Shown here piece after piece: positions 50,701 to 56,700 of a DNA stretch of 64,000 nucleotides (positions are counted from its first letter, which is position 1; every line of letters starts with the position of its first letter). The stretch spans positions 5,295,191 through 5,359,190 of the forward strand of contig JACYXH010000473.1 of assembly GCA_026745465.1 (NCBI GenBank), given 5' to 3'. The notes beneath the pieces were generated by a model, which was not told the origin of the DNA, searched no databases, and worked only from the letters and a program-made list of their open reading frames with translations. The position numbers were made by a program, and so were the translations under genes. This stretch comes from Lota lota (lineage: Eukaryota > Chordata > Actinopteri > Gadiformes > Lotidae).

Positions 50701-53700
50701 TTGGCTTGTATGCAGCACATTACTCATGGCAAAATGGCTTTTATCTTGGCCATCTAAAAATAGCACCCGGTCTCTGGCCAAGCATCAGTAAAGTGTGCTA
50801 TGACTCGCTGAGTGCACGTTTGGCACATGGCATGATAAAATGTACGTTTTGAATTACTATTAATAATTTGTTTTATTAAAATTTTATAAAATGGTTGCGT
50901 TATTTATGACACTTTGAGTTTGCCCCGCAACTCTCGACTTGAATCCGTTTTGAAAATTATATTTTCAAATATAATTGTATTTACCGCATTTCATCTACTG
51001 CGTAAATGCATGCAGTATATGAGGTCAAGCACTGCTTATGTGTGCAAATATAATTTATTCTCAAACTGGTCCTAGTTTTTGAAATACTTTAAACCTTCAA
51101 CTGGAGCTATTTACTGCATTGGAATATATCTGAACTAAAACGTTTCTCAAGAATTAAACGTGCCCATCCACAAGTCAATCCATCTAGAGACTTTTGTCTT
51201 ATTCTGGTTCGGTTACCTGGCTTTATTCTGCACTACTTATGCCCAACTCAGCTCAAGCCACTAGAGGTTGCTACTGGGAAACCGTACATAGTGCAGATTT
51301 AAGTTATGGGGTGGGGGGAGGGGGGAATGTAAACGGCAATTTTATCGTTACCTCACTGTGATCAAATTTCAACAATCCCTGGGTTGGATAACCTGTGTGT
51401 GTGTGTGAACGTATCTGTACGTGTGTGTGTGTGTGTGTGTGTTTATGCATGAGGGTGGTTTGTTAACCCACTATAAGTAAGCCTGTAGCAGACAGGTTTG
51501 AGCACTCTGAACCACCATAGTGACTGACACAGACCCCATGGGGCATCCCTCTTTCAATAAAAACATTTGACAAGCCGGGTTGTATATCCCATCTCCTATC
51601 TTAACGGCCCACTTCCCACGAACATGTAATTAAAACGTTTAGCAATCAGCCTAATCAGCTAGCGGCTAGTAACAAATGATCCTTAATGCTACTACTACTA
51701 CTACGACTATCGATCGAACAAGCGTTTGTCTCGTGAGTAATCGCTGCCACTACGACTTTGTATAAATCAGTGGATCACCAGGAATGGCAGGAGTTGGTCC
51801 GGCGAAGACCTCCTCAGGAATGTTGAGGTGCATCTATCGCTGGTTTGTCGCCATGGCGGTTGGTAAATGATTTTCCCACACGTGGCGATTGCTTTGCTTA
51901 CGCAGCCTCTTCCACCACGGTGGGTTAGCGAGGGGCAACCTGGTCTGGATTGTGGCTCAGGTGCGTTTTGAGATTAGAAGGACACTTGAATGGAGCAGGG
52001 GGAAGAGGAGGAGAAGGAGGAGCCACGGGGGGGGGGGGGGGGGGGGGGGGGCAAATTATCCTAATGAAAATGGAATAATGCTGCCTGTGTCTACATAGAC
52101 AGTGAATCCGGTTTGACAAGTTTGCGTCAAGGAAGAAGGAGAAGGAAAAAAGGGTGTGTGTGCAGGGATGCTTTGTATAGAATGTGTGTGTGTTTCTGTG
52201 TCTGTCTGTCAGAGAGACCGTGTGAATGAGTTTACGTTGTTTGCAAATCTACCTGAGCTGCCTCGGCCCCTGGGGTTAAAGACACACCTGCGTCCCGCCC
52301 CGTTCTGCCAAGCAGTATCCTGATCTCTGCACACAGGAAGTACACGGACAGACGGCTGGAAACACACAAAAAATAACTGGGACATTGGGATTTAATCCTT
52401 TTTTTAAGCTTGTCCTTCTGGAGAGCGAACTATGAAAGTGACAACACCACATCATGCCAGCAGTACGGTGAAGGAAGAACAGGGAGCAAACAAAGTGTTT
52501 AGTTGTATTTTTGGTGTTGGAAAACAAGGACATCCGGCTGGAATGAGTACATGAGGTGCATGAGGTCGGACCACGCTGGCTGTGGAGAGGAACTGACAGC
52601 AGAAAACGAGAGAGGGGCTCAAGGGCTGCAGTGAGAGAGAAATAGAGCGAGCATGACAGAGTGTGTGTGTTTGAGATAGTGAGAGGGAGGGAGAGAGGGA
52701 GAGAGAGCAAGGCAGAGAGTGTGTGTGTGAGAGAGAGGGAACAAGGCAGAGAGAGAGACTGAGGGAGAGCACGAGCTGGATCAGATAGTTCACCCTTCAC
52801 TGGCTGACTTGGAAAGGAACAATTAAGGGGAGGAGTGGGGGGGAGGGGGGGGGGGGGGGGTTCCCCAGGGCTAGGCTTCCCGGCGGGTCACGGTTGCCAC
52901 GGCGGCACAGCATTGTTGACGAATTTCCAGTGAGCGAGCACAGAGAGAGAGAAAGGGGAAGAGAATGGAGAGGGGGGAGTAGGGAGAGGTAGGTCGGGGG
53001 TGTGCGCTGTGGTTACGGCTGCGCTCCACTCAGTAACCAGAGAGAGACGGAGCGAGAGGAAGCACGAGAGAGCAAGAGAGCAGGCAAAGAAACGCTAAAC
53101 CTTCACTTGAGAAACTCAAACCTTCGTCTGAAGGACTTACCTCCACCCTGGTCCGCTTTTGGAGTTTCCACAGCACCACCTCCAGCCTAGCGGGCGCAGA
53201 GCGCTCCCAACTGGACCATGACTCTCTCCCCGGATGCGCCCGTACGTCCTTTCTCCTCAGCGGTCGTACAAGTTATCCCGCTCCTTCGGCGAGGATTCCA
53301 CGTCCCCACCGCCACCTCCACCTGACACCTGGACTCGCCCCGCCGGCTTGACATGTGATCAGAGGTGACGCTGAAGGAAGGAAGGACGAAAAGAAAAAAA
53401 AAAAACACAACCTCTTCAGCCGCTCTGAATGTTTACTCTAGCAGGAGCACGGCATTAAGCGAGATGTAGGAAGGAGACTGTTGTTGCTTAGAGCTACCGC
53501 TGCTACACACAACATCCTTACCTACCCCCCCCCCCCCTGAGTGGTGGTGTGTATGTTTACGTTGTGGATATCGGTTGACCTGATTTGCCAAGGAAGAAGC
53601 CGGTAAGGCAGAGAAGACGGTTCACATGGAATGCGCGGAACGCACCGGTTTGATCGACTGATGTTTTAAGGAGACAAAAAGAAGTCAGTTGGTGAGTCGC

Positions 53701-56700
53701 CAGCCGATGTCGGAGTGAGCGGGTGTTGACGCCGGTGTTGAGCAGTGAGCCGCGGCTTATACCCGCGCTGCCATGGATTCGTACCGGTCCTACTGGAACT
53801 CGAGCGCGCACAACAGCGTGGTGTGGGTGGATGGCGAGGACCAGGACGTGTACGAGGTGGAGTCGCGGGTGCCCCTGCCGCGGCCCTTTCCCTTCACCTC
53901 CGTCCTGAACGAGAAGAACGCCGTGGTGGTGCAGACACAGATCTCCCACATCAACCACCGCGAGAATGGACACCTGCTTAAGGTGGTGTCCAAAATCTCC
54001 CTCCCCACTCCTCCCTACACCGTAAGTGTTTGAACACCGGGTGTCGTGTGTTTGTGGATCTGTGGAGGGCTTCTTTGGGTTGTTGGATTGGTGGTGTTGT
54101 GGTGGCTTTATGGTTAAAGTTCTGCGCTACAATGCAAGTTGTGCACAGAACCCCCTGTGTCAAACAGTCCCCTGACTGCACTGTCAGACGTACTTCTGTT
54201 GATATTCTGCCGGTGTGTACTGTATAAGCATATGTTTTTCTACATATGCGTTGCAATTTGTCGTTATATCGTTTTCTACTTTTCGCTGGGGGTGGTTTCA
54301 ATAAGTCACGCATGGCGTTGTACCGCTTGTCTCAGGTCAGAGAGAGTGTGTGTGTGTGTGTGTGTGTGTGTGTGTGTGTGTGTGTGTGTGTGTGTGTGTG
54401 TGTGTGTGTGTGTGTGTGTGTGTGTGTGTGTGTGTGTGTGTGTGTGTGTGTGTGTGTGTGTGTGTGTGTGTGTGTGTGTGTGTGTGAGTGAGAGTTTGTC
54501 TGAGAACAGGTCATAGTTTCCTGGTTGCTACACGGTTACGACGTGACCTTTGTTCAGCGAGATAGGGATATGTGTTTGGTAGATTCTACCACAGTTTACC
54601 GTATGGATGTTAACTGTAGAGACGTTTACTGTGATGTTTACCTCATGTCAGAACCAGCTGCCTTTCCTGAGCTGAAGACTGACATTATTTTAATCTCAGC
54701 ATCTCAAAGAGTGTCTTTGCGTTTCACATTAAAACCGACATTAAACTGCCATTTACTACTGAGTCAGTTTAAAGTGACTCATAATAGTTTAATACATAAT
54801 GATACAAAAATAAATGCACTGTATATTGGCAAGCAAGTCATTTCACTCATCTTTAATCAATGTGCTGAGCCTATGTTGACTGAGAGAAAACAAAAAGTTA
54901 AACTGGACCTGCTGATGACTTTAATATCAATATAGACATTAAATAAAGATGTGAGTGAACATATGTGTAAAAACAGTTGGTAATATACCTTATTGTAGTC
55001 TAACCTTGTCAATACCTACACTAAAACAGCTATGCTTACCTTGTCAATACCTACACTAAGACATTGCTATGCTAACCTTGTCATTACCTACTCTAATATA
55101 AAACTGCTCTAACCTTATCACTACCTACACCAATACCAAGCTATGCTAACCATGTCAATACCTACACTAATACATAGCTGCTCTGACCCTGTCAATACCT
55201 ACTTTTAGGTTCACACACAGGTATCCTAAAGGTCAGACATCAACTGTCAACACATAACCTTTGCACTTTGCAACTGCAAAGATACCATAGAAAATACTCC
55301 AAAATTGTATTTAGGTTATTCTTCGCCCATTCTTTACCAGAACACATCAACCGCCGTCTCTCTCGGCCCTCTCCCCCCTCTCACTCGTTGTCTCTCCCAT
55401 CGTAGCTGGAGCACGCGCGGATCACCCAGACGGAGCTGATGCGCGAGTCCTTCCGCCACAACCAGGAGATAGGGGAACTCCTTCAGAGGCAGGAGGAGCT
55501 CCAGGAGCGACTGGCGGAGGAGGGGCGTGCCCGCGAGCAGCTGGCCCTCGAGCTGCACCGTGCTGAGGGTAAGGCCTGGGAGGGAGGAAGAGGAGGAGGG
55601 CGTTGTGGTGCTTAAATGTTATTTAGTTTTAAAGAGCTGCTACGTTACCACCAGCTGCCATTACAGGCCAGGGTTAAGGGGTGCCCAAGAAACAAGTAAT
55701 GTTCCACTCACTGCCCCGATCGGGACAGTTTTAATGCCAGTAAAACTGGCCCCTAATGCTGATAATTACAACTTTCAGTGAGGGCCATGCCTTGTGGCCA
55801 GTATGTTCAGACTCAGACCCACTGGCCCAACTGGATCAGTGGCAAAACATTTAAACGTTGAACCCTGACACCGTACCTGTGAGTGTCCACCCAGATGAAC
55901 GATGGATGGATCAGCCTACCAGTTGGGACAGTCACTGGGTAGGCTGGTAGGCCTGATCTTTCAGACATCATACATCTGGTTGTACGTCATCAAACCTGAT
56001 TACTTTTTTTTAATGTCCTTTTTAAGGTTTAAAGGGTGCAGGGGCTGGGGTTAGACTCTATCTGTATCCACTGCCCAACCCCCTATCTGATCCTAAAAGA
56101 CACAAAATTACTGTAAGTCTCTTTGAATAAAAAATTGAATTATAAACAAGCTTCTCTGGCCGGTCACCTAATTTAGGGTAATTTCATTGTTGTCACTGGG
56201 GTAAAGTTCAGAGATATAATTATATTGTTTGATTCTGTGATTTATTTCTATGTCATATATCGCTTTATGCCTTGCATGCTATGGTTATGGCTTGTTTATG
56301 AGTTTGTAAGGAGGTTTGTGATCATGTAGTAGGACAATATACACTGGTTTATTTTTCATAGACATTTGTTGCGCGGCATATTGCGCTGTCTTTTAGTGTA
56401 ATGTGTGTTTATGTTTGTGTTTGTTTTTTAGTGGTGTGTGTGTGTGTGTGTTTCGGAGGAGGGGATCAGCTGTCAGCTTTAGTGGAAAGTGTAATAGCAT
56501 CTGTCATCAAAAGACAACAAATGGAAGTCTATGACACTGGTTTATCACTTTCAAGGATCTTACACGTATTGGTTTTTCTGCATACACATGCACTATTGAA
56601 TGATTGTGTTAAAAATATAAGAACAAGTACCTGTCTTGGGACTATTGATGTGAGGGATGTAAAGAGAGGATTGTAATGTCTAAATTGGCGAGTGTTTGTG

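Follow-up and report, generated by a model that had tools for sequence, protein, structure and literature searches.

RESULTS

An 83-codon exon lies in an intron of AKAP9

In the window, a 64,000-nucleotide stretch of the Lota lota genome, there is a long plus-strand gene which, by its likeness to the human sequence, we take to be AKAP9 and not pericentrin, with which it has the PACT domain in common. Human AKAP9 presumably reads ETSSQ-LEHAKVTQTELMRESFR at the junction that corresponds to the one between the fish exons ending ETSDQ and starting LEHARITQ. The ETSDQ exon ends at 49390 and the LEHARITQ exon begins at 55406, so the intron between them spans 49391-55405 (6 kb). Within this intron, as the sequence-only reading had proposed, lies an isolated coding exon, hereafter the head exon (Table 1). 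Far upstream, at 4379-4675, the window also contains a fragment of another gene with a QRICH1 domain (PF25561, E 3.8e-21).

Table 1. Coordinates in the window of the head exon, its signals and the AKAP9 exons discussed
Feature	Coordinates	Strand	Remarks
Predicted N-terminal AKAP9 exon of the long form	17682..17740	+	MEDEERQKKLEAGKAK, ATG 17693
Upstream canonical AKAP9 exon, ends ETSDQ before GTAGGA	49172..49390	+	Start predicted; phase 0; long form only
CpG-rich non-coding leader, candidate TATA-less promoter	53001..53772	+	CpG observed/expected 0.86
In-frame TGA closing the frame 5'	53746..53748	+	27 bases before ATG 53773
Head exon, coding portion (proposed as an alternative first exon)	53773..54021	+	83 codons, phase-0 GTAAGT donor; codon periodicity that no shuffle equals
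Splice donor GTAAGT, preceded by ACC	54022..54027	+	Read directly; exon end = 54021
AKAP9 exon starting LEHARITQ, proposed partner	55406..55568	+	Phase-0 acceptor after ...ATCGTAG

The signals claimed for the head exon can all be read directly from the DNA. Specifically, the 83-codon frame opens with an ATG in a strong Kozak context (GCCATGG; GCTGCCATGG), is closed upstream by the TGA and runs into the GTAAGT donor. With an approximate donor matrix, this donor ranks 274th among 5540 GT sites and scores 1.3, versus 3.7 for the donor at 49390; the score is just 1.3 because ACC precedes the GT. The phase-0 donor fits the AKAP9 acceptor at 55406, as claimed, both sides of the flanking junction being phase 0. 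Phase-0 introns are common, and the agreement is therefore weak evidence alone. Position 52560, at which the feature had been said to start, coincides with no identifiable element, and the CpG-rich zone starts near 52.8 kb. About 325 bases 3' of the donor there is a long GT microsatellite (~54346-54486).

Codon periodicity is bounded by the ATG and the donor

The G+C content of the head exon at codon positions 1, 2 and 3 is 0.58, 0.37 and 0.88, giving a difference between positions 3 and 2 (GC3-GC2) of 0.51 across the exon. Taken in 60-base windows, the difference is 0.45, 0.70, 0.55, 0.45, 0.70 and 0.60 between 53773 and 53982, and in the last window within the exon (53953-54012) it is 0.35. 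Windows outside the exon or across its edge range from -0.25 to 0.20, with one exception of 0.35 at 54193-54252. The periodicity thus sets in at the ATG (53773) and fades at the GT donor. The exon's value is reached in none of 20000 base permutations and in none of 300 shuffles of the whole intron; when 53501-54250 was dinucleotide-shuffled 2000 times, neither strand reached it.

Thirteen plus-strand stretches attain this value in the 88,810 bases that the window and the following 24.8 kb of the same genome make up when joined. Ten lie over predicted AKAP9 exons or an mTERF gene, and one of the ten continues into a TTC/CTC microsatellite; two lie in open reading frames of 183 and 100 codons 5' of AKAP9, and one is the head exon. 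On the minus strand, four stretches attain the value: three are opposite exons of the plus strand, and the fourth covers the microsatellite. The TTC/CTC repeat itself (L007 ~3243-3530) adjoins a predicted AKAP9 acceptor at L007:3538.

An open frame would also be seen here if the exon were a pseudo-exon or if a CpG island rich in G+C had produced the frame by chance, and several open frames are indeed present: plus-strand frames of 79 and 70 codons and a longer, 189-codon antisense frame. Since other frames are also open in this GC-rich stretch, the length of an open frame alone is no evidence. The third-position bias, however, is bounded by the ATG and the donor and is equalled by none of the local or whole-intron shuffles, and it is missing from the antisense frame, leaving a chance frame as the least probable of the explanations that we weighed. 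An antisense gene at 53557-54126 on the minus strand was likewise rejected, its frame having no third-position bias over the exon (G+C of 0.58 at its own position 3). The head exon is a real coding exon, confirmed by its codon periodicity.

The head exon has the features of a first exon

The head exon is an open coding exon with an ATG, a 5' stop and a donor; it has no good acceptor, the phase-0 AG dinucleotides nearby being weak. Between the TGA at 53746 and the ATG there is a single AG, with a score of -4.4, and an exon starting there would not be in phase with the ETSDQ exon. Phase-0 AG sites would give exon starts at 53845 (-0.9), 53704 (-0.4) and 53746 (-0.7). The 14 predicted AKAP9 acceptors score from -0.5 to 4.6, so low scores alone do not exclude the use of these sites.

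The exon could accordingly be read as a cassette of the long AKAP9 transcript, spliced between the ETSDQ and LEHARITQ exons either in frame, with its start inside the head exon, or as a TGA-bearing poison exon. The sites exist for both variants: 53845 would leave 59 codons, and 53704 or 53746 would take in the TGA. However, these AG sites are preceded by purine-rich or mixed sequence with no clear pyrimidine tract, the codon periodicity sets in at 53773 and not at 53845, and a cassette leaves the CpG-rich leader unexplained. A cassette is, in our judgement, very unlikely, and we favor a first exon.

A CpG-rich leader precedes the ATG

The leader 5' of the ATG has the top CpG count among 1519 windows of 772 bases, scanned from 17.8 to 84 kb outside 37 listed exons; the top-scoring window of the scan is the one at 53000. 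The leader could be what a promoter looks like, as judged from base composition. In 52900-53772, none of the motifs TATAWAW, CCAAT, GGGCGG, RFX, NRF1, MEF2 and ETS is matched. The leader also contains ten upstream ATGs, all of which close before the ATG of the head exon; this weighs against the first-exon reading in so far as an unspliced leader of some length would carry upstream open reading frames, unless transcription starts near ATG 53773.

The main N-terminal exon of AKAP9, which lies outside the range of the scan, is preceded by a CpG-rich stretch of its own (16501-17000). We do not claim this stretch as the main promoter because it is partly a CA-type repeat (open reading frame 16352-16717).

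The downstream exons lead to the PACT domain of AKAP9

CYP51A1 and MTERF1 are the neighbors that we presume for AKAP9. In the joined sequence, the plus-strand exons scored from 55406 onwards are mostly AKAP9-like coiled coil as far as an exon at 83103-83338 (L008:9103-9336), which encodes a PACT domain (PF10495, E 7.9e-22). An mTERF gene (PF02536, E 2e-35) follows the PACT exon, and a p450 match at 9163-9420 is weak (19.5 bits, under the Pfam cut-off of 22.8). When the exon chain is forced to start at the head exon, its frame stays open through the PACT exon and it counts 31 exons, encoding 2,899 residues if the terminal one is not included. The coding component of this model was trained on AKAP9 exons; the exon ends it gives are rough, and several of the exons with low scores may be mistaken. 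For the N-terminal part of the gene, a comparably rough model puts ~1,880 codons ahead of the junction. In the model that starts at the head, the later coiled coils and PACT would be kept, as the sequence-only reading expected. Given a free choice, the AKAP9-trained model still used 53817-53982, a portion of the head exon, in a different phase and with a different donor.

Two further places in the genome encode PACT (L002 and L003; G000:C479:104226-107435 and G000:C707:91743-94952). They are identical over 3,210 bases and are probably one gene assembled twice. Within AKAP9, beyond the 3' end of the window, there is also a coding tandem array (L007:7113-9053), in which a 42-base, 14-residue unit like QLEEQLADYKQSSS is repeated ~45 times in 1.9 kb and accounts for ~630 residues of the predicted coiled coil.

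The downstream exons also bear on whether the head exon might be the first exon of another gene, one contained within AKAP9 or situated past it in the same orientation. A head with no known match and no resemblance to the coiled coil of AKAP9 would suit such a gene, but the plus-strand exons scored between 54 kb and the PACT exon mostly resemble AKAP9 coiled coil, and the gene seen after them is the mTERF-like one. The coding model, which was trained on AKAP9 exons, could miss exons of another gene if they are weak or short. We rejected this reading as highly unlikely and retain the LEHARITQ exon as the partner of the head exon.

The 83-residue head has no credible relative in the collections searched

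The head, which includes the peptides VPLPRPFPFTSVLNEK and NAVVVQTQISHINHR, is not coiled-coil-like by eye, in agreement with the sequence-only reading, and no credible relative was found in Pfam, PDB sequences or its own genome. Specifically, no Pfam family matches at E up to 10, and the single match among PDB sequences, mitochondrial ribosomal protein mL42 (E 0.99), is a chance one. In the genome itself, searches with the head DNA and protein return the exon, together with one protein match on contig C438 (E 8.3, 32% identity). When the surrounding 11 kb was searched again, this match covered the first 65 residues with 19/65 identities and a gap, and its E of 8e-6 is nominal because the search space is tiny. 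As the alignment is loose and gapped, we took the match as chance and not as a paralogue.

No relative of the head appears among viral contigs, bacterial and archaeal genome contigs or plasmids; the only vertebrate genome in the collections searched is that of the window itself. A control from AKAP9, the LEHARITQ exon, is also unmatched among the viral contigs, so the null result there says nothing about vertebrates. An AlphaFold prediction of the head alone, made without an alignment, gives low-confidence strands with a mean pLDDT of 47.7 and is uninformative. Five peptide strings from the head match nothing in papers, and a literature search that covered titles and abstract openings, with subscription papers and gene databases outside its scope, returned no account of the head exon.

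DISCUSSION

A candidate internal promoter for a short, PACT-keeping AKAP9

We consider it very probable, on the strength of the sequence features described above, that the head exon is the coding first exon, with an alternative promoter, of a short form of AKAP9 that keeps PACT. A promoter inside intron 49391-55405 of the fish gene would start transcripts with the head exon; position 54021 would then be spliced to 55406, where the LEHARITQ exon begins, and the remaining AKAP9 exons would follow. The coding exon with its boundaries, the phase fit, the downstream chain and the PACT domain are seen in the sequence, and we infer that the promoter is active and the junction used. The product would consist of the 83-residue, non-coiled-coil head followed by C-terminal AKAP9, ~2,900 residues in the rough model, and would lack the ~1,880 N-terminal codons. 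In some tissues, it may act as a scaffold that still has the C-terminal partners and is still targeted to the centrosome but lacks the N-terminal binding sites, and the head might give it another location or another partner.

Yotiao is the N-terminal part of AKAP9, that is, the end opposite to the proposed PACT-keeping C-terminal form. The Yotiao and gamma-tubulin-binding regions at the N-terminus would presumably be lost from the short form. The human PKA RII-binding region comprises residues 2327-2602 of the long form, according to the accessible part of PMC5928172; with ~1,880 codons before the junction in the rough model, this site would, by position, lie 3' of the junction. Yotiao is described as a short form of AKAP9 in the available portion of PMC8073060, and in being a short product of AKAP9 it resembles the form proposed here.

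Comparison with known isoforms

According to the accessible text of PMC6119822, human AKAP9 occurs as two primary isoforms, and the shorter one has a transcription start site of its own. The parallel is close, being the same gene with a second start site and a shorter product, although it concerns human and not fish. That part of PMC6119822 gives no position or sequence for the short isoform, which for this reason cannot be matched to the head exon. The claim of a new internal promoter holds in part: the DNA offers a coding first exon and a CpG-rich candidate promoter, but "new" is not supported, a shorter human isoform being in print.

A review quotes Ensembl as listing 16 human AKAP9 transcripts, nine of them coding (PMC6861388, section 5, from the part available). 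These include AKAP9-204, with a product of 1769 aa, and AKAP9-213, with one of 282 aa, and either of the two could correspond to the short form. AKAP9 is also named among alternatively spliced genes in the accessible part of PMC5861047, and the portion of PMC8523159 available to us has nothing on AKAP9 isoforms. The short AKAP9 form may already be annotated in mammals.

Internal promoters with coding first exons are known from elsewhere. For DLG2, the accessible part of PMC5518101 describes an intragenic promoter and a coding first exon that give the scaffold a new N-terminus, as proposed here; the gene is unrelated, and the proof there comes from CAGE, H3K4me3, split reads and protein-level data, whereas the present case is read from sequence. 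The short form of pericentrin (PCNT), the sister protein of AKAP9, in cardiomyocytes is, like the proposed product, a shorter form of a PACT-family protein that keeps PACT (PMC7349303); unlike it, the PCNT form arises by alternative splicing and prefers the nuclear envelope, and the available part of that paper mentions no head exon.

Implications for AKAP9 biology

A bolder reading makes the head a conserved vertebrate targeting module that would move the PACT-bearing half of AKAP9 off the centrosome in some tissues and replace or compete with the long scaffold, so that microtubule organization would be switched by the choice of promoter. We regard this reading as doubtful.

At the Golgi and the centrosome, AKAP9 serves as an anchor for PKA and for factors that nucleate microtubules. 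If the proposed short form is real, the N-terminal half of this scaffold would be exchanged for an unrelated head of 83 residues, leaving the C-terminal partners the same and making recruitment different. The reading of N-terminal truncations, knock-outs and variants of AKAP9 would change as well, because lesions 5' of the intron would leave the short form intact.
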